Below, in pieces: positions 30,372-60,112 of a stretch of 64,000 nucleotides of DNA. The position numbers and the translations under genes were made by a program. The notes below the pieces were generated by a model. It searched no databases. It worked only from the letters and a program-made list of their open reading frames with translations, and was not told the DNA's origin. The DNA comes from Onthophagus taurus. Taxonomy: Eukaryota; Arthropoda; Insecta; Coleoptera; Scarabaeidae. Where the stretch lies: NCBI RefSeq assembly GCF_036711975.1, contig NC_091971.1:24001501-24065500 (forward strand), given 5' to 3'. The first letter of the stretch is position 1. The number at the start of each line of letters is the position of its first letter.

Positions 30372-30900
30372 TTCATTTTAAGAAATTATGTTCAATACAA
30401 AAATTTGTTGTGTAATTTGTATCTACATTTGAGAATACTTCAATTTTGTTTTTGTTCAATTATTTTTGAGTTACTGCCCGCGTAATATTTTTAAATGGGA
30501 ATCTGTTAATGTTATTGTACCATTCGATAGAGTGTTTTTTTCTCTTTACCACCGTATTTTTGTTTTTTTTTAAATTGATTTTAATAACATTTTTACAAGA
30601 AAAAACCGGTTCAAGTATTTACGAATAATAGATAAGTAATTATTTGGGAGCACAAACAACCAGCGATGCCGACGGAACACTATAAAGTGCTAGGATGAAT
30701 GGCATATTGTAGAGGAAATCAACCAAGAATATGAATCAAATCTATAAGGGCCGATTTACACCAGACGAGCTCATTCTATATCCACTCTATCATATTCTGT
30801 TAGTGTAAACAGATGTATAGCATTCTTTCGTTGTTCTGTCTGTGTTCTCAAAGATTCTAGGGAATATTCACCGGCGAGACGATAGCAACAAACCGCTCAG
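30372..30900. other. Flank between two inverted-repeat elements
   Basis: AT-rich sequence with a t-run near 30560; no gene recognised. Confidence 0.4.
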
Positions 30901-33139
30901 CAACAAACTTTTTCCTTTATATTTCCACCTACTTCTAGGGCCCATATCTTCGTTATCTAGAAAGATAGCGAAAAACTAAGCACACGGTTGGAAAGCTTGG
31001 TCTTTTCTCTATCGTAAACCGATTTTCGTCCGCCGATATGTTGATAATAAGAGCAAGAAAAAATAAAAAAACGTCCCGCTGCATTCAAATTACCTCAAAA
31101 TTATCAAATTTCACGACCTTGTGCAGCCGTTGCCAGATGGAAATGCAACAAATGGTTTACATATTCGGAAAGAGCTGACCTTGGACTATCTTATTCCGAG
31201 TTTTCGTCCGTCAATATCTGTCGACGTCTGTAAAAAAAACGCTCCTGAAAAAGAGTCTACAGTTGGCAACAATCTTTACTTTTGTATTTCCATCTATCTA
31301 CTTTTCGGACGGATATCTTTGTTATTTATAAAGCTAGCGAAAAACTAAGTACACGGTTGGAAGGCTTGGTCTTTTCTCTATCTTAAACCGAGTTTTTGTC
31401 CGCCGATATGTTGATAATAAGAGTAAGAAAAAATAAGAAACGTCCCGCTGCATTCAAATTACCTCAAAATTATCAAACTTCACGACCTTGTGCAGCCGTT
31501 GCCAGATGGAAATTCAACGAATGGTTTACATATTCGGAAAGAGCTGACCTTGGACTATCTTATTCCGAGGTTTCGTCCGTCAATATCTGTCGGCGTCTGT
31601 AAAAAAAAACGCTCCTGAAAAAGTTTCTACAGTTGGCAACAAACTTTTTCTTTTGTATTTCCATCTATGTACTTTTCGGACGGATATCTTTGTTATTTAT
31701 AACGCTAGCGGAAAACTAAGCATACGGCTGGAAAGCTTGGTCGTTTTTCTATCTTAAACCTTCGTCCGCCGATATGTTGATAATGAAAGCAAGAAAAAAT
31801 AAGAAACGTCGCGCTGTCACGAATTTTTGCCGCGGTTAAACCACGCTTGGGTCAATAACTCTCTTATATGACGGGGAGGAAACTCTAGAACTATATTCAT
31901 CCTATGGGAAATTTTCTGCTCTTTTCATCTGTATATAACACATCTCAATCACACGTTTGCACAATCGTTTTTCAGCCCAGCAACAAACTTTTCCCTTGTA
32001 TTTCCGTCTACTTTTCGGGCCAATATTTTCGTTATCTAGAAAGATAGCGAAAAACTAAGGTTGGAAAGCTTGGTCTTTTCTATATCTTAAACAATGTTTT
32101 CGTCCGCCGATATATTAATAATAAGAGCAGAAAAAAATAAAAAACGACACACTACATTTAAATCACCTCAAAATTGCCCCACTTTAAGGCTTTGTGCAGC
32201 CGTTATCAGAAGGAAATTCAACAAATGGTTTACTATTACATATTCGAAAAGAGCTAACCTTGGCCTGTCTTATTTCGAGTTTTCGTCCGGCAATATCTGC
32301 CGGCGTCTGTAAAAGAAACACACCTGAAAGACGACCTACAGGTAGCAGAACGCAATCACTTCTTATCCTAACTTTCTTATTTGATGAAGGAAAAATTGGG
32401 ACAAAGTTTTACCTGAGGGCGAATCCTAACTTCATTTCATATTGGCAGATAATTTTTCATTCACTCTTAATTTATTTAAAACCGTTTAAAAACAAATACA
32501 TAAGTGCGAAGGCTAAGATGGCTACATAAGATGAATATAGTTCTAGAGTTTTTTCCCCTTCATATAAGAGAGTTATTGACCCAAGCGTGGTTTAACCACG
32601 GTAAAAATTCGTGGTTTAGGTAGTTCATAGTCAAAAAAGGGATTGTGCAAACGTGTGATCACGGTGTGTCACACATCGTTGGAAAGAGCAGGAAATTTCC
32701 CATAAGCTGAATATAGTTGTAGAGTTTTCTCCCTGTCAAATAGGAAAGTTATTAGTGCAAGAAATATTTGCGTGTTTTTGTCGGTAGGGGCTTTTTCAGG
32801 TGCGTTTTTCTTACAGACGCTGATAGATATTGGCGGACGAAAACTCGGAATAAGATAGTCCGAGGTCAGCTCTTTCCGAATATGTAAACCATTTATTGAA
32901 TTTCCATCTGGTAACGGCTGCACAAGGCCGTTTGGTAATTCTGAGGTAAATTGAATGCAGCGCGACGTTTCTTATTTTTTCTTGCTCTTATTATCAACAT
33001 ATCGGCGGACGAAAGCTCGGTTTAAGATAGAGAAAAGACCAAGCTTTCCAACCGTGTACTTAGTTTTTCGCTAGCGTTATAAATAACAAAGATATCCGTC
33101 CGAAAAGTAGATGGAAATATAAAGGAAAAAGTTTGTTAC
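30901..33139. mobile_element. Foldback-type element with tandemly repeated arms
   Basis: The left end caacaaactttttcctttat and the right end are inverse copies. The left arm holds tandem copies of an about 370-bp unit, starting near 30962, 31335 and 31705, with a more diverged fourth near 32040; landmark cggttggaaagcttggtctt, later tgtgcagccgtt. The right arm (32770-33130) holds one inverted unit. An inner inverted pair (cgcttgggtcaataactctc at 31847, inverse ending near 32615) sits between. Short frames in the units repeat in each copy but match no family. Confidence 0.75.
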
Positions 33140-47789: not shown

Positions 47790-49083
47790 CAGTGCTGGCG
47801 CTAGCAAATGAAGCGCCAGGGTGCGGGAACCGGAGTGGCGCCCCCCCAAGCATTTTGTAATATTATAATAAATATAATCAAAGAAATATAAATAAACTTA
47901 AAAAAAGACTGGAATAATCATAATCCATACTTCAGCAAAAATGGTGAAAAACCAATCTTAAGGGAATAGTCGGGAATACTCTGGTCAGAAGGTTAATTTG
48001 CATGAAAAAGTCTGAAATTGCAATAGTTATAAACTAGACTTCAGCAAAAAACAGGAATTACATTGTTCAAAGTCCACATGAAGTCTGAAATTACTGTTCA
48101 GAGAAAACAAAAAATTGATTATAAACCAAACATGATTTTTCATGGCAATACTTATGTATTCAATAAAAGAATGGGAAGAATATGAACAAGAAACCAATGG
48201 ACTTGTCTTGTTATTGCACAGGACAGGAAATCACCAATACGGAAACTTTGCCAATGCAGGATAAGCACAAAAGCAAAGTAACAGCTGCAGAAATGAGGTA
48301 CCGGGTGCTACAAAATCCGTATAGATAATAAGAGACTCCCAAGAAGATCTACTGCTTTCTGACGACTAGATACTGCTCTGGAAGATTAAATACTGCTTTC
48401 TGAAGACTAGATACTGCCGACAGGTCTAAATACAGCATCTGAAACACTAAATACTGCTTTTTTAAAGACTAAAATTGCTTTGTGGAGACTAAATACTGCT
48501 TTTTTAAAGACTAAAATTGCTTTGTGGAGACTAAATACTGCTTTCTAAAGAGTAGATACTGCTGACAGGTCTAAATACTGCAAAAGAAAGATAAAATATT
48601 TTGGAGAAAACATACATAACTTTGGCAGAAGACTAGATACTGCTTCTAGAAGACTGAATACTGCTTTCTGAAGACTAGATACTTCCGACAGGTCTAAATA
48701 CAGCGTCTGGAACACTAAATACTACCTTCTAAAGACTAAAATTTCTTTGTGGAGACTAAATACTGCTTTCTGAAGACTAGATACTGCTAACAGGTCTAAA
48801 TACTGCAAAAGAAAGATAAAATATTTTGGAGAAAACATACATAACTTTGGCAGAAGACTAGATACTGCTTCTAGAAGACTAGATACTGCTTCTAGAAGAC
48901 TAGATACTGCTTCTAGAAGACTAAATACTGCTTTCTGAAGACTAGCGACTGTTGACAGGTCTAAATACTGCAAAAGACAGATAAGGTATTGTTGGAGAAA
49001 ACATTAAAAAGGCACCGACGCCCCCTCTTAGGCGGCGCCCGGGTGCAGTGCACCCCTTGCAGCCCCCGGTAGTGCCGCCTCTG
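47790..49083. mobile_element. 1.29-kb hAT-type MITE with 8-bp target duplication
   Basis: Bounded by the exact direct repeat cgctagat (47782-47789, 49084-49091). The tips cagtgctggcgc and (inverse) cagaggcggcac fit the hAT CAGxGGCG pattern. The ends are G/C-rich (ggcggcgcccgggtgcagtg) in an AT-rich genome. The interior is a minisatellite (next entry). Confidence 0.9.
48335..48975. repeat. Minisatellite inside the hAT MITE
   Basis: Variants of gaagactagatactgcttct and aagactaaatactgctttct repeat about 20 bp apart for 640 bp. A longer unit of about 245 bp, including gaaaacatacataactttgg, is duplicated (48590 and 48830). Confidence 0.85.
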
Positions 49084-50142: not shown

Positions 50143-50499
50143 CAGGGTGTCACACAAAAAAACGCCCCTGCGCACTACAGTATAACACAAGTGACTTTAA
50201 GAGAATGTTCGGAAACTATTTTAATGTTTTTCTATGCTACAATTACAATTAATGTTGATGTATCGTACATTAGTGGATTGAGAAAAAGAATTTCTATCTA
50301 ATAGCGTGAAGAAAAACATACCGAGCAATTTGAAAATGAAACTTGATAATCGCTAGAAATTGAAGATGGCGTTGGAAAAAGTTTATTTGTAGCATGAATC
50401 ATAGTATTCATCAAACCTTTTCATTTGATACCTCGCTCATGAAAATCGGAAGGTAAATGACAGAGTTACAGCTTGGGGCTTTTTTTGTGTGACACCCTG
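50143..50499. mobile_element. 357-bp MITE in the piggyBac relic
   Basis: Ends cagggtgtcacacaaaaaa and its inverse at 50499, flanked by TA on both sides. Non-coding. Confidence 0.85.
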
Positions 50500-51439
50500 T
50501 ATAACCAGTTTGACTCTCACAAAGCATTCTAACAAGTAGGCCGTATTTATTATGTTTATTAGGGTTATAAGTTCTAAAACGCAGTCTTCCCCTCCATGGG
50601 ATTACACCTATATCTATTGAAATCTATTGATTTGGTTTATAAACGGTTTTAAATTTTTCAAGGAATTAATTTTGAATTGGTTCTATTTTATGAAGTCTGG
50701 TGGAGTTTTCATTTAAAAGTGAGTTATCATTAAAATGCAAAAACTGTATGATTTGCAGAAATCGATCTCTACTCATTACTTTTGAAAAAAATAGGCATTT
50801 CTTCCAAAGGATCGTTTCAACAGTAATCTTTCAAAGTATTTTTCATAGTATGGTCCATTAAAAGTATAATTTTTTTCATTTCATCACTTGTAATTACGGT
50901 ATTTTTTTTAAATTTTGCCGAACATTGGTATTTGTGTTTGGTTTGTGCATAATACAAATTTCTCTGCCATCATTGCAAACAAATTGTCTTTTATAAATAA
51001 TCCAACGTACTCAGAAATAGACTTTGGATTACTGGGTATTTTTTGTAGGTACACCAGTAGAACCAAGAAAAGGTTCAAGAGACATTAACTTGTCTTGAGG
51101 TGCCCATCTTATTTAAATCATTATCATCAAATTCACGCTCTGAAGAAGGTAATCTACGCGCAATTTTTTTCATGTCGTTGAAGTTAGCAACGGATTCAGA
51201 AACGAAATTCACATTTTTACAGCGGACCAAACAAATAGTGTACTCTATCTATAATTTCGTATTTATTAGTGATAACAACCAAAAAAACATCAAAATTAGC
51301 ATTAAAGAGAGTAAAATAGATAACCCCTCTAAAACTTTCAAGTAAAATTCATTATTATTAAATAAAAATCACCCTTTCATTATGTGAAAAACTCCAATTT
51401 GCATTGAAAAAGCTTGATGATCCATTAAGTCAACCCCAA

Positions 51440-53545
51440 ATATCAAAATCACTATTCCGAATAACATATCTAAGCACCACCCGGAAATTCAGGGGATAAA
51501 GGGTCGAAATCACCCCCGAAATACGTAAAAAATTCATAACTTTCTTGAAAAATTTTGTGACACCACCAAACTCAGTCCAAAGATCGAAAATAAGGTTTCG
51601 AATAACATATCCGCGAGATTCGCGGAAATTCAGGGGATAAGGGGTCGAAATCACCCCCGAAATACGTAAAAAATTCATAACTTTCTTGACAAATTTTGTG
51701 ACACCACCAAACTCAGTCCAAAGATCGAAAATAAGGTTTCGAATAACATATCCGCGAGATTCGCGGAAATTCAGGGGATAAGGGGTCGAAATCACCCCCG
51801 AAATACGTAAAAAATTCATAACTTTCTTGACAAATTTTGTGACACCACCAAACTCTGTCCAAAGATCGAAAATAAGGTTTCGAATAACATATCCGCGAGA
51901 TTCGCGGAAATTCAGGGGATAAGGGGTCGAAATCACCCCCGAAATACGTAAAAAATTCATAACTTTCTTGATAAATTTTGTGACACCACCAAACTCTGTC
52001 CAAAGATCGAAAATAAGGTTTCGAATAACATATCCGCGAGATTCGCTGAAATTCAGGGGATAAGGGGTCGAAATCACCCCCGAAATACGTAAAAAATTCA
52101 TAACTTTCTTGATAAATTTTGTGACACCACCAAACTCTGTCCAATGATCGAAAATAAGGTTTCGAATAACATATCCGCGAGATTCGCCGAAATTCAGGGG
52201 ATAAGGGGTCGAAATCACCCCCGAAATACGTAAAAAATTCATAACTTTCTTGACAAATTTTGTGACACCACCAAACTCTGTCCAAAGATCGAAAATAAGG
52301 TTTCGAATAACATATCCGCGAGATTCGCGGAAATTCAGGGGATAAGGGGTCGAAATCACCCCCGAAATACGTAAAAAATTCATAACTTTCTTGACAAATT
52401 TTGTGACACCACCAAACTCTGTCCAAAGATCTAAAATAAGGTTTCGAATAACATATCCGGGAGATTCGCCGAAATTCAGGGGATAAGGGGTCGAAATCAC
52501 CCCCGAAATACGTAAAAAATTCATAACTTTCTTGACAAATTTTGTGACACCACCAAACTCAGTCCAAAGATCGAAAATAAGGTTTCGAATAACATATCCG
52601 CGAGATTCGCGGAAATTCAGGGGATAAGGGGTCGAAATCACCCCCGAAATACGTAAAAAATTCATAACTTTCTTGACAAATTTTGTGACACCACCAAACT
52701 CAGTCCAAAGATCGAAAATAAGGTTTCGAATAACATATCCGCGAGATTCGCGGAAATTCAGGGGATAAGGGGTCGAAATCACCCCCGAAATACGTAAAAA
52801 ATTCATAACTTTCTTGAAAAATTTTGTGACACCACCAAACTCAGTCCAAAGATCGAAAATAAGGTTTCGAATAACATATCCGCGAGATTCGCGGAAATTC
52901 AGGGGATAAGGGGTCGAAATCACCCCCGAAATACGTAAAAAATTCATAACTTTCTTGACAAATTTTGTGACACCACCAAACTCTGTCCAAAGATCGAAAA
53001 TAAGGTTTCGAATAACATATCCGCGAGATTCGCGGAAATTCAGGGGATAAAGGGTCGAAATCACCCCCGAAATACGTAAAAAATTCATAACTTTCTTGAT
53101 AAATCTTGTGACACCACCAAACTCTGTCCAAAGATCGAAAATAAGGTTTCGAATAACATATCCGCGAGATTCGCCGAAATTCAGGGGATAAGGGGTCGAA
53201 ATCACCCCCGAAATACGTAAAAAATTCATAACTTTCTTGATAAATTTTGTGACACCACCAAACTCTGTCCAATGATCGAAAATAAGGTTTCGAATAACAT
53301 ATCCGCGAGATTCGCCGAAATTCAGGGGATAAGGGGTCGAAATCACCCCCGAAATACGTAAAAAATTCATAACTTTCTTGACAAATTTTGTGACACCACC
53401 AAACTCTGTCCAAAGATCGAAAATAAGGTTTCGAATAACATATCCGCGAGATTCGCCGAAATTCAGGGGATAAGGGGTCGAAATCACCCCCGAAATACGT
53501 AAAAAATTCATAACTTTCTTGACAAATTTTGTGACACCACCAAAT
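51440..53545 (-). repeat. Left array of the 141-bp unit, 15 copies
   Basis: The marker gtgacaccacc occurs 15 times from 51557 to 53531 at exact 141-bp steps. Units differ at few positions. The variant ccaatgatcg recurs at 52141 and 53269, eight units apart, and neighbouring variants repeat in the same order, showing an 8-unit duplication. Because 141 is 47 codons, a 716-codon frame runs through the array; it is not called as a gene. Confidence 0.95.
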
Positions 53546-54657
53546 TTTTTTTCTACAAAAATCCCGTATAATGGCCGCATTTAAATATTTACGGCCTCAT
53601 AACTTTCTTATATAATATGGAGATAACTCTGGGACCATATGAACCCTATAGGAAATTTTCCGCTCTTTCCAGCGAAAATACTACGATAATAATTAAAAAA
53701 AAATTGTTTTTAAACAATATGAGAACAGTTGACGAAAGTATAACCAAACAATCACTAAACCATATCTTCAAGGGAAACATCAATTGAAAATGAATTTTAT
53801 GTAAAAGCACGTATTTTTGTCTCGCTTATACTCTTAACACCTCCACGGTACGGTCCGTTGTCGTAGACGGTGACGCTAACGCGACGCGACAGGCGTCGGT
53901 CGGCTGTTGCAGTGGCGACGCCGACGTAACTGCCCAAATGTCTTTTCGTTGTTTTTTAGTTTATTCACGTTTAGTCGACTGCAATCACTGGTAGAAGTTG
54001 TTTCGCTAGATCAACGTTTTATTTTTGGGCTAGTTCGATTTCCTTGATATTTCTTGAGCTGTTTTTTCTTTGTTTTTTAATATTATTATTAATTAATAAT
54101 ATTAATTAATATTGTCTTGCATTCAGAAGTTTGGGTTGTTTAGGTGTTTGTATATTTATAATCATTTCGTCTTTAGTTTGTATTATTATAATCATTATAA
54201 TCATTTGAATAAGGTTTATTTTTATTTTTTTCCTCGGAAGGTATAATTTGGTGGTTGTTGCGTTATAGTAATTCTGTAATTTGTTATTTTTGCTTGTTTT
54301 GCTCTTTGTTTTTCTGACCTTGTTGCTAGTTTAAGTGTTCGGTTTGTTTTGTTTTCATTTTATTCTTCCCTTTTTATTGTTAGTTTAAGTGTTCGATTTA
54401 TTTTCTTTTTCATTTTACTTTCCTGTTTTCTTTGGGAGTTTTGCGACTGTTTTATTTCATTGTAATATTGCTGCATAGATTTTCGTTGTGACTTCAGTAG
54501 GAAAAATAAAATAAACTTTTATTTTTTTTATATCATTTTAAGTGACAATTATAGTAGTTTATCTTTGTTTGTTTTCATTCCTTATTTTAAATACTTCCTG
54601 CTAGGAGAAGGCAATAAATAAGTTTCTTTGACAATTCGTTACCTTTATAATATTAAT
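53546..54657 (+). promoter_or_regulatory. Leader of the 8.8-kb element
   Basis: 53585-53665 resembles 31853-31925 of the other foldback element (aggaaattttccgctctttcc). A CpG-rich island of about 100 bp at 53840-53940 (gacgctaacgcgacgcgaca) stands out from AT-rich surroundings and could be the promoter. 54040-54600 is T-rich, like a 5' UTR or small introns. Confidence 0.4.
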
Positions 54658-57600
54658 ATGGACGGTCCAGGAAGGCCAGTTAAACAAAGTAAGCAGTTAA
54701 GGTTACAGAAGATTGCAAATTTTCTTAGTAAATATAATATTGATACGACTGTTTTAAGAGAATGCTCTGTTCGATCAGAAATATCACATCTATCAGATCT
54801 CTGTGTATATGTTGATATTAAAGATAATTTAAAAAATAGAAAGATGTTGCTAATGAACATCAAAAGAGATGCTGATGAAATTGAAAAGTACATCAATTCC
54901 TCTACTGACGTCGATAATTCCCTTGAGGTTGATGGCCACTTGATAGATAATGCAAACACAGCAGTACATGAAGCAATGCAACATGCACGAGAAAAAATAG
55001 AAATATCCCAGAGTATATCCAAAAGAGATACTGATGAAATTGAAAAATACATCAATTCCTCTACTGACGTCGATAATTCCCTTGAGGTTGATGCTGTTGA
55101 TGGCCACTTGATAGATAATGCAAACACAGCAGTACATGAAGCAATGCAACATGCACGAGAAAAAATAGAAATATCCCAGAGTATATCCAAAAGAGATACT
55201 GATGAAATTGAAAAATACATCAATTCCTCTACTTACGTCGATGATTCCCTTGAGGTTGATGCTGTTGATGACCACTTGGTAGATAATGCAAACACAGTAG
55301 TACATGAAGCATTGCAACATGCACAAGAAAAGATAGAAATGCCCCAGACTATATCGAGTCCAATCAATAAGTTAAAATTTAACTTTTTTAAAACATTTAA
55401 AATTAACCGCTATGTAGATAACCACGACATATCCTATAAGTCCGAAGTTAGACATCAGTATTGGCGACAGCAAATAAGTCTATATGGCATTTCTTGTCTT
55501 CTAATTTTCAAAGGAAGTCGTATAAACAAAAAAAAGCAGCAAACGGCTTGTCAGATAGTCGAGTATGCAATTTGTAAACATACATCTTGTAGAGAATTTA
55601 AATTTATATACAATATTTTAGAGGATTTGATAGATGTAAGAATATGCTACAAAGGTCCTCACGTGGAAAATCACCACGAAGAGCATGCTTATCAACTGAA
55701 AGGTAGAGAAAGGGCGGAGGTAAAGAAAGAACTGCTTTTTAGTTTGCCCAGCACCTATCGCAGCGAAGAAATAAAAAAGGTTGATAGAGATTTAATTTAT
55801 GAAGGTAATTGGCAAGGCTTGCGCTCGCTTTCCGTTTACCAAAAAGCTAGGTCGGAGGCAATGGGCGAACAGGACTTTCATTCGGATCCTTTACTAGATA
55901 TACTACTAATGTCACTAACTCAGGATGATGACAGTACATACGTTCAATTTCCTAGCGGAAAAACGTTGGTGTATTTATATTCCAAAGAGAACATTAAAAC
56001 CTTAATTAAGAAAGGTAAAAAAATGATAGGGTACTTTGATGCGACAGGCTCCGTCGTTAGACCGACTGTGTATGATAGGGGTCGCAGGGTTCTATACTAT
56101 GCGTTGGTTGTGAAAGTAAACGACATTGTGGTACCTATCGCTGAATTAATATCTTCACATCATGATTCGGCAACAATAATGGCTTTTATTTTGCATTTTA
56201 AACATTTTATACGTACGAAATGCAAGAAAACATGGCCGATCTTTAACGTTGTTGTAACAGATTGGAGTTTTTCGCTTGTGATGGCTATTTGTCAAGGGTT
56301 AAACGATGTCACTTTATATACTTACCTCCAAATTTGTTATAAATATGTTACAAATAAGGACGACCATCGATTTTTTAGTTTAATAAAATTAAAACTATGT
56401 TGTGGACATTTCGTTAAAATGATTTGCAACAGACTTTCTCGTACTAAGAAAAAACCGAATATAAGGGATGGAATTGTTAATGCAATAGCAGTATTAGTTC
56501 AATGTAGATCCTTGGAAGAGTTAATTATTCGATTTGAAAATGTCGCTTTTCTCTTATTAACATCGTCATATAATAACAACGTCAAAAATGCAATAGCACA
56601 CCTATCGTCTAGTGACTATGAAACCTACAATCATTTGTTATCTACAAGGCAAGATATTTCATGTGAATTGGACGTCGACATAGATGAAGAAGTTGTGAGA
56701 GGAGAATATACTAGCTCTCCTTTTTTTATTTGTTTTTTTAGAGTTTATGACAAGGTTTTAAAAGAGTTAGATGAAAGTGTAAGCTCAGCAACGGAACGCA
56801 ACCCTTACAAACACGAGGAATTTTTTACGTATTTATTGAATTATGTAATGCCTTTCGCTCCAATGTGGTCCAACATACTTGAAAGTGATCGTTACAGTAA
56901 TTCACTTGTGGAAACATGGTTTAAAATTGTCAAGTAAGAAATACTAGAAAACAAAACCAATTTGAAAGTAGGGCGATTTGTAAACCTGCTTAATTCACGA
57001 ATTATAAGTAACATAAAAGCTATAGATTTAGAAATTGGTAAAAAGCCGAAGAGGAAAAAAATAACCTCAACAAAATCAGATGCACGACATGAAATTGATA
57101 ACCCGGATGCTCAAGAAACGTGGACAAAATCAAAAAAACGAAAACGGTATTTTCATAATGTTTACTTAACGGACAAAATTAATGTAAATGATGAAAATAA
57201 CAAAATAGATGATGAAGTGGAAATGAATTTAGTCGTACAACCAGAAAAGGTTGAAGAGGAGATCATAAGGGGGACCCAGCCAACCCAACCAGAAAAATGT
57301 TATGAGAGGGGGTTAAAGTCAAACCAACCACAACCAGAACAAGTTGATGAGGGAGATATACAGTATTGTTCTTTGAACGGTATCCTTGATCAGCCAGATC
57401 AACGAGCCCTTTCAAATGGTCTGTTCTTTGATCATGATTTTTATATGTCCGCAGCTTTCCAAACTGATTTTATCTTGGGACAATATTCATATAATGGACA
57501 AACGATTTCATTAAGTAGCTCTGACTTTAGAACGTTAATATCAACCGAAAACGGGGGTTGTAATAATCTGCAACCCATGGGTTCATGGGTTGCAGATTAT

Positions 57601-58755
57601 TGCATAGATTCTCTGGCATTTACTTTTTTTAAAGACCGCGAAGACATTTATTACATCGACACAATATCCGTCCAAATTTTGCTTTCAGATCAGATAAAGA
57701 ATCTGTCTAAATTTTTACCTTTTACAAAATCACTTAAAGGAGTCCGTTTTATTCTGTTGCCCCACAATTGTAACAACAATCACTGGATATTAATTATATT
57801 AGATTTGACTACTAACTTTATTTGTATTTTGAATCCTGGTAAATATTATCGTATATCACACGAGGAAATTGTAAAAAAGGTTAAAAGACTATTTTCCACT
57901 AGAGACCGTCTATACCTACACGAAGACAAACTAAATGCTAGGAAGTGGAAACTAACAACAATAGCATATCCTACCCAAGAGACTGAAGATTCAATCAATT
58001 GTGGAGTCTATGTTATATGGTATATGATGGTTTTGCAAAAAAATGAAACACTGCAATATTTGTCAACATCATTATTACAAAGTAATTTTAATCCTGACCT
58101 TTTCAGAATTTCTTTACAAAATGTTTTATTACTGTCATCTGACGTTATGTATGATAAATGTTTTAAATGTGGTATAGGATCACAGGAAAACTATGTAGGC
58201 TGCAACTTATGTAACAGATGGTTACATATAGATCGTTGCTCGAACATATCTAATCTAATTTCTATAGATACCATTAAACTTCGCAACTTTGTTTATAGTT
58301 GCCCATTATGTCAACACTATAAACCAGGTTTATTCAACACATCAAGTACAATTAAAAATGTTGCGTTGGATAATATGTCTCTAAAATATTTTGTGATTCA
58401 TTACAAAAACGAATTACAAGAAATATACAATACGAGGGACACAAACGATTTTTGTGAGCGGTACCGCTCTGTTAATAAACCAGAGTACCATTTGAAATGG
58501 GATATGTCAACTCCGTTTATATCATTTAGTGCGGCAGTCTATATATGTAGAAAGATAATGTCAACAACCAATATACCAGACAAGACATTTGTAAAATATG
58601 TTCTTCTGGGATTTCTGAATTTAAAAATTATACGTAAATATTACGGAATGAACGATGAAGCAAGCTTCTTTGAGCAATATAAAACGCTTTATGATATTAC
58701 GGATAGGGATCATGTTTATCCAGATCACTACACATTAGACCAAATTCAGTTTTAA
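54658..58755 (+). CDS. Transposase-Ulp1-PHD fusion frame with one internal stop
   Basis: The first good ATG is at 54658 (MDGPGRPVKQ, AT-hook-like). The frame runs to TAA at 56935-56937 and continues, same frame, to 58755 (1365 codons). Residues 69-229 hold three copies of a 53-57-residue acidic module (KRDTDEIEKYINSS...). A DDE core follows: Asp461 (GYFDATGSVV), Asp535 (VVVTDWSF), a CCGH motif with His584, Glu752 (NSLVETWFKIVK). After the stop come a basic linker, a Ulp1-like protease (GSWVADYCID near 975-985; His1042, Asn1059, Gln1107, Cys1115) and a PHD finger at 1168-1218 (CFKC, CNLC, WLH, CPLC). Residue numbers count the stop as one position. The transposase would act on the inverted repeats; the protease could process SUMO-like conjugates, both inferred. 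Confidence 0.75.
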
Positions 58756-58848
58756 GTACAATAATTATTTATATATACAATTATTATTATACACCCTTTA
58801 TCAACATAATTTCCGCGCGTCTCATAGATAATATATGTTATTGGAATT

Positions 58849-59705
58849 CGATCTCTGGGCTGAGTTTGGTGGTGTCACAAAATTTTTCAAGAAAGTTATG
58901 AATTTTTTACGTATTTCGGGGGTGATTTCGACCCCTTATCCCCTGAATTTCCGCGAATCTCGCGGATATGTTATTCGAAACCTTATTTTCGATCTTTGGA
59001 CTGAGTTTGGTGGTGTCACAAAATTTTTCAAGAAAGTTATGAATTTTTTACGTATTTCGGGGGTGATTTCGACCCCTTATCCCCTGAATTTCCGCGAATC
59101 TCGCGGATATGTTATTCGAAACCTTATTTTCGATCTTTGGACTGAGTTTGGTGGTGTCACAAAATTTTTCAAGAAAGTTATGAATTTTTTACGTATTTCG
59201 GGGGTGATTTCGACCCCTTATCCCCTGAATTTCGGCGAATCTCGCGGATATGTTATTCGAAACCTTATTTTCGATCTTTGGACTGAGTTTGGTGGTGTCA
59301 CAAAATTTTTCAAGAAAGTTATGAATTTTTTACGTATTTCGGGGGTGATTTCGACCCCTTATCCCCTGAATTTCCGCGAATCTCGCGGATATGTTATTCG
59401 AAACCTTATTTTCGATCTTTGGACTGAGTTTGGTGGTGTCACAAAATTTTTCAAGAAAGTTATGAATTTTTTACGTATTTCGGGGGTGATTTCGACCCCT
59501 TATCCCCTGAATTTCCGCGAATCTCGCGGATATGTTATTCGAAACCTTATTTTCGATCTTTGGACTGAGTTTGGTGGTGTCACAAAATTTTTCAAGAAAG
59601 TTATGAATTTTTTACGTATTTCGGGGGTGATTTCGACCCTTTATCCCCTGAATTTCCGGGTGGTGCTTAGATATGTTATTCGAAATAGTGATTTTGATAT
59701 TTGGG
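58849..59705 (+). repeat. Right array of the 141-bp unit, 6 copies
   Basis: The marker gagtttggtggtgtcac begins at 58862 and recurs every 141 bp to 59567. The orientation is opposite to the left array. The outermost unit carries the same variant end (gaatttccgggtggtgctt) as the outermost unit on the left. Confidence 0.95.
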
Positions 59706-60112
59706 GTTGACTTAATGGATCATCAAGCTTTTTCAATGCAAATTGGACTTTCACATAATGAAAGGGTGATTTTTATTTAATAATAATGAATTTTACTTGA
59801 AAGTTTTAGAGGGGTTATCTATTTTACTCTCTTTAATGCTAATTTTGATGTTTTTTTGGTTATTATCACTAATAAATACGAAATTATAGATAGAGTACAC
59901 TATTTGTTTGGTCCGCTGTAAAAATGTGAATTTCGTTTCTGAATCCGTTGCTAACTTCAACGACATATATTTTTCCTGAGAGAAAAACATTCACTGTCAT
60001 CACTTGAAACTTCACTTTCCTCATCCAGGTTCTCAAACTCAGCATCACTTCCGGATAAGTTATCCGTATAAATTGTCTCAGCTTCCGCAGAAAAGTCTTT
60101 GCTGCTTGTCAT

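Follow-up and report, generated by a model that had tools for sequence, protein, structure and literature searches.

Rehavkus transposons, recorded from arthropods and annelids, are described as having a 9-bp target-site duplication, terminal inverted repeats of 26-400 bp, one reading frame, a PHD finger and a minisatellite, and as being close to the Mutator-like elements (MULEs) (PMC6446971); another account places them inside the MULE superfamily, where they serve as the outgroup (PMC13359780). One described member, Rehavkus-1_TC of Tribolium castaneum, is 9.5 kb long and carries 164-bp units, mostly five and eight of them, in its inverted termini (PMC10218199). Here we analyze an element in a 64,000-nucleotide stretch of the genome of the beetle Onthophagus taurus (NC_091971.1, positions 24,001,501 to 24,065,500; hereafter the window). 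With a probability of roughly 90%, we regard it as a recent copy of a Rehavkus-type cut-and-paste DNA transposon that now carries a stop in its transposase and that inserted into an old piggyBac gene.

The insertion spans positions 51172-59966 of the window as a single discrete unit, and its ends are exactly those proposed in an earlier interpretation made from the letters alone (the sequence-only reading). The near-identical outer inverted repeats and the two inverted arrays of one 141-bp unit claimed there were both recovered (Table 1), the terminal repeats being identical at 217 of 218 positions (99.54%, blastn). That the insertion is discrete because it cuts a piggyBac gene in two was likewise borne out: Pfam recognized DDE_Tnp_1_7 in two pieces of the left flank (E=8e-7 and 1e-6), and joining the flanks yields an open 77-codon frame that spans the junction. 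The N-terminal flank piece across the junction matched no Pfam family.

Table 1. Features of the element and its target site (positions in the window)
Feature	Position	Strand	Remarks
Target, decayed piggyBac transposase gene, part left of the insertion	50400..51171	-	
Left target-site duplication, 9 bp	51163..51171	+	ATTTTTTTC; 8/9 identical to right copy
Left terminal inverted repeat	51172..51389	+	218 bp
Left array	51482..53544	-	141-bp unit x 14.6, 98% matches
Spacer, left array to coding frame	53545..54657	.	~1.1 kb
Transposase frame, first part	54658..56934	+	759 codons from ATG 54658
In-frame 168-bp (56-codon) repeats, N-terminal part of frame	54861..55355	+	3.0 copies; Tandem Repeats Finder (TRF)
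Catalytic region	56038..56913	+	D461, D535, C581-x2-H584, E752
Transposase frame, second part	56938..58755	+	605 codons: Ulp1-like domain, PHD-like finger, C-terminal tail
Ulp1 (Peptidase C48)-like match	57709..58044	+	
PHD-like C4HC3 zinc finger	58159..58311	+	
Right array	58847..59658	+	Same 141-bp unit x 5.8, 99% matches; inverted relative to left array
Right terminal inverted repeat	59749..59966	-	218 bp
Right target-site duplication, 9 bp	59967..59975	+	ATATTTTTC
Target, start (ATG side) of piggyBac frame, right of the insertion	59976..60112	-	

We searched the host genome (290.8 Mb, 33 contigs) with the left end of the element and obtained 46 matches, 19 of them at 98% identity or more. 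These 19 account for nine copies with two ends each and a tenth with a single end, so that other copies with matching termini do exist and the element is neither a chance pattern nor an assembly join. The nine two-ended copies measure 3,865 to 13,341 bp, and their target duplications agree at 9/9 positions in four cases and at 8/9 in two (the window copy and C3b). Together with the element ends, these duplications support a cut-and-paste mechanism in which a DDE-type transposase acts with a 9-bp stagger. Long core blocks of the other copies are ~96-99.6% identical to the window copy, and the spacer between the left array and the coding frame is 97-100% identical over its full length in six of them. 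The coding core is kept in eight copies and largely missing in C3b and C7a; in C7c, the left terminal repeat is absent from the stretch read. No flank resembles that of another copy, with the exception of C7b and C7c, whose right flanks are 100% identical over the 277 bp that can be compared, which is why these two probably represent one insertion that was later duplicated. Recent movement had been deduced in the sequence-only reading from the near-identity of the arms. The movement itself is supported by the identity of the cores and by the perfect duplications elsewhere, but the likeness of the two ends does not by itself indicate age: in the outermost 330 bp, the left and right ends of an element are separated by 0 to 13 differences (7 for the window copy), compared with a mean of 6.0 for ends taken from different elements.

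Two observations on individual sites may be added. At C15:1613376-1621266 (L047), a copy without a 9-bp duplication, the 40 bp that open the right flank recur 149 bp outside the left end; judging from these sequences, this insertion site is rearranged. Moreover, a 57-bp piece of the element end repeats at eight places on C11 (8.49-9.59 Mb) and two on C20 (0.09-0.20 Mb), most of them near degenerate Ulp1-PHD pieces, as if within a long segmental repeat.

Between the arrays, one long frame with DDE-like, Ulp1-like and PHD segments had been proposed. The segments are present, but the frame is not unbroken: a TAA at 56935-56937, eight codons past the catalytic Glu, splits the frame 54658-58755 into 759 and 605 residues, after which the same frame continues. 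Given this in-frame stop, the window copy itself is probably non-autonomous. Of the eight copies with a retained coding core, four have the frame open (C3a, C1b, C1a, and C15b; stop-to-stop lengths, in ascending order, 1,324, 1,380, 1,382, and 1,436 codons) and four have it broken, by a stop in the window copy and in C15a and by a break between the Ulp1-like and PHD-like parts in C7b and C7c. Frame length varies partly through the in-frame 168-bp N-terminal repeats, of which seven other copies hold 2.0 to 4.0 (TRF); these repeats constitute a second minisatellite of the element, this one coding and located in the N terminus of the transposase.

The best genome match outside the family, L067, aligns with the first part of the protein at 36% identity over 541 positions and with the second part at 27% over 472. 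All four catalytic landmarks, namely D461 (in FDATG), D535 (TDWS), C581-x2-H584, and E752 (SNSxVExWF), are invariant in this comparison, and the catalytic motif words occur in 8/8 copies. A DD-E triad with a CxxH between the second D and the E is the layout of the MULE superfamily, and the element transposase presents this layout. Three host MULE proteins that we aligned show a similar readable order of D, D, CxxH, and E, except that one of them lacks the His. A profile of the catalytic region matched no solved structure up to E=5, NCBIfam gave no match for three proteins, and a search of viral contigs returned three pattern matches, among which no relative was confirmed.

In the second part of the protein, the Ulp1 family PF02902 is matched above its curated cut-off (Pfam, E=1e-4 for the window protein), with E=2e-11 and 2e-14 in two relatives, and a profile built from three sequences recovers SENP5 (2.7e-8) and yeast Ulp1 (5.4e-5). 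The residues at the presumed active site are His (57781-57783), Asn (57832-57834), and Cys (58000-58002). Further downstream, the eight C4HC3 ligands of the PHD-like finger are invariant in all three aligned sequences, two of which are diverged relatives. Pfam recognizes this finger weakly (E=0.2 in the window and 0.23 and 0.0057 in two relatives), with no match reaching the curated cut-off.

Arrays flank both sides in 10/10 copies, and the number of units per arm ranges from 2.0 to 41.6 among these near-identical elements. Given as left/right and oriented by the coding frame, the counts are 14.6/5.8 in the window copy, 11.6/20.8 in C3a, 41.6/8.8 in C1b, 39.6/11.7 in C1a, 22.6/28.8 in C15b, 2.6/3.8 in C15a, 8.4/4.8 in C3b, 8.6/11.8 in C7b, 7.4/20.8 in C7c, and 6.6/2.0 in C7a. 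A two-unit query returned 193 genome matches; among the matches listed, only C8:16189694 and C11:5048314 fall outside the ten copies and none represents a free satellite of the 141-bp unit. The average difference between units is 2.05 inside an arm, 2.78 when the paired arms of an element are compared, and 2.85 across elements (medians, 1.93, 2.54, and 2.39, respectively); special exchange between paired arms was not seen in this comparison. The unit holds one perfect short inverted repeat, TCCGCGA-3-TCGCGGA, a candidate transposase binding site.

A second family with a matching protein layout and inverted minisatellite arms resides at C11:12819300-12828700 (L072, L067, L071). Here the surroundings of L067 contain inverted arrays of a 162-bp unit, with 13.0 and 17.6 copies inside the 9.4 kb read, and both arrays run past its ends. 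Arrays of this unit occur at ten other genome places, nine of them with both orientations, in addition to one short fragment; five of the ten also have Ulp1-PHD matches (C7:39.23, C1:22.62, C14:0.08, C3:7.93, and C6:22.63 Mb). The 162-bp and 141-bp units show no detectable relation, given that 200 shuffles attained their best local score 27 times on one strand and 64 times on the other, and the 162-bp unit that we examined contains no perfect inverted repeat with arms of at least 6 bases. Judged by sequence comparison, families thus share this layout even though their proteins are far diverged and their repeat units no longer recognizably related.

How does the element compare with the systems described so far? 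The likeness to Rehavkus suggested in the sequence-only reading is sustained by the 9-bp duplication, found perfect or nearly so in six of nine copies, by terminal repeats whose 218 bp lie within the published range, by the PHD-type finger, by a single open frame in 4/8 copies, and by the minisatellite in the inverted termini of all ten. The main text of PMC6446971, however, describes the Rehavkus group without the word Ulp1 and puts the minisatellite before the 3' terminal repeat. As described in PMC10218199, Rehavkus-1_TC is similar in size (~9.5 kb), in the arrays of a satellite-sized unit in its inverted termini and in its several copies (~95% identical); by the same description it differs in its unit of 164 bp versus 141 bp here and in its array lengths, which here reach 41.6 units. 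The second likeness drawn in that reading, to Foldback/NOF elements, holds for the shape, that is, for the long inverted arms of tandem units. Accounts of the Foldback-like elements Tetris (PMC4079207) and Tm1 (PMC3169594) report inverted termini of variable tandem units and 8-10 bp duplications, as here, although with units of ~220 bp and ~14 bp, respectively. For Tetris, the authors found no transposase-bearing copy (PMC4079207), and the Tm1 transposase is Phantom-like (PMC3169594). Ginger1 resembles the element in having a C-terminal Ulp1 domain on a DDE-type transposase, with a PHD in one listed family, and the Ulp1 and PHD domains of Ginger1 and Mutator transposases have been aligned (PMC2836005); unlike here, its core is Gypsy-integrase-like, and the description consulted mentions no array arms.

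Several results weigh against the assignment or parts of it. The Pfam MULE family PF10551 was matched by neither the element transposase nor L067, a MULE search of the genome gave 16 matches without listing the window element, and an hhalign comparison to MULE, using very thin profiles of two versus three sequences, returned a probability of 0.5%. Since these profile tests gave no link, membership in the MULE superfamily rests on the motif layout and on the literature. The Rehavkus assignment itself is based on agreement with published descriptions. Changes in the catalytic stretch are too few to show purifying selection: ratios resembling that of nonsynonymous to synonymous change (dN/dS) run from 0.07 to 1.77, where one could be formed, among the ten pairs from five of the eight copies (three copies were dropped because both marker words were not found in one frame), and one pair has four amino acid changes and zero silent ones. 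In the Ulp1-like domain, the position 17 residues after the His is Asn where the relatives L067 and L068 have Asp, and the corresponding motif word occurs in 8/8 copies. We take this Asn to occupy the third triad position, from the alignment and the structure of Ulp1. Of the His-Asp-Cys triad of an active Ulp1 (C48) protease, the His and Cys are present, with Asn for the presumed catalytic Asp, which makes protease activity doubtful. A good 9-bp duplication is missing in three of the nine two-ended copies (C1a, 5/9; C7b, 1/9; C15a, 0/9). Finally, an empty piggyBac site, for which the sequence-only reading had proposed to look, was not found in a genome search with the joined flanks. Apart from the halves from which it was joined, this query aligned only at two places, in part (query 38-278 and 1-61); both alignments stop short of the junction at 300, and the better one remains unmatched over 1.5 kb beyond.

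The element might instead be a Foldback (FB/NOF) or Phantom-type MULE element that is Rehavkus-like in shape alone. Composite tandem-repeat arms are known from Tetris and Tm1, in aphid Phantom elements the transposase is followed by a minisatellite (PMC6446971), and duplications of 8-10 bp are common to Foldback/Phantom-type elements. However, among the entries considered in the table of PMC6446971, a PHD finger is given for Rehavkus alone, with none, FLYWCH or SWIM for Phantom; PF10551 fails to match here, yet finds 16 other places in the same genome; and FB4 has been described as non-autonomous and moved by an unknown transposase. We consider such an origin unlikely. Still less credible, to the point of being nearly negligible, is an assembly artefact that joined the halves of the piggyBac region via a collapsed repeat. 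The two target copies in the window do differ at 1/9 bases and no empty site was found, but the same ends and arrays recur at ten places, perfect 9-bp duplications border four of these copies, and the flanks of different copies are dissimilar, C7b/C7c excepted.

A further alternative concerns the arrays, which could be coding, each arm making a repeat protein of 47-codon units. The 141-bp unit is open in one frame, long frames run through one or both arms in several copies (up to 1,985 codons in C1b), and none of 266 unit spacings shifts the frame, 264 being 141 bp and two 144 bp. Indels are indeed scarce, with 0 indels to 69 substitution types in the 141-bp arrays versus 5 to 19 in the neighboring spacer (Fisher p=0.0008; spacer counts from seven copies, excluding C15a and C7a, which are broken there, and C3b, which has no spacer match). 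Yet the 69 distinct substitution types in 264 units look neutral in the open frame: 53 are missense (49.0 expected), 15 silent (17.5 expected), and 1 nonsense (2.5 expected), so that array frames as genes were not supported. The 162-bp unit, moreover, has stops in all six frames, and its arrays likewise show 0 indels to 26 substitution types (p=0.02) over 29 units; at C5, by contrast, indels do occur, with two-unit matches of this 162-bp unit spaced 322-323 bp. Because frameless arrays also lack indels, their scarcity is likelier due to homogenization or a length constraint than to coding, and a coding role of the arms appears very improbable.

Under the preferred interpretation as a Rehavkus-type transposon, the transposase would bind the 218-bp ends and perhaps sites in the arrays as well. 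Such array sites are suggested by analogy with Galileo, in which additional binding sites for the transposase lie in the terminal tandem repeats (cited in PMC4079207). The transposase would then excise the element and join it to the target with a 9-bp stagger, while the Ulp1-like and PHD-like domains may target host proteins modified by SUMO or ubiquitin as well as chromatin. Array length could change through unequal exchange or replication slippage, and the window copy may have moved before gaining its stop or in trans via an intact copy. It is tempting to speculate that the arms are a working part kept as a layout, each Rehavkus lineage growing, on both ends, its own array of units of approximately nucleosome length that would phase nucleosomes next to the cleavage sites of a transposase with a histone-reading PHD-like finger. 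This idea stems from three unit lengths (141 and 162 bp here and 164 bp in Tribolium), and we think it unlikely to be correct.

The kind of element is already known; what surprises is the extreme range of arm lengths among near-identical copies and the rebuilding of the same layout with an unrelated unit in a sister family. With ten copies, four open frames, and a second family, this genome lends itself to questions about how transposons come to build and carry satellites, whether movement depends on array length, and which functions the Ulp1-like and PHD-like domains have. Outside the element, the window holds two more tandem arrays, at 30900-31816 and 48350-48944, one with a 369-bp unit repeated 2.5 times and the other with a 21-bp unit and a longer period of 225 bp.

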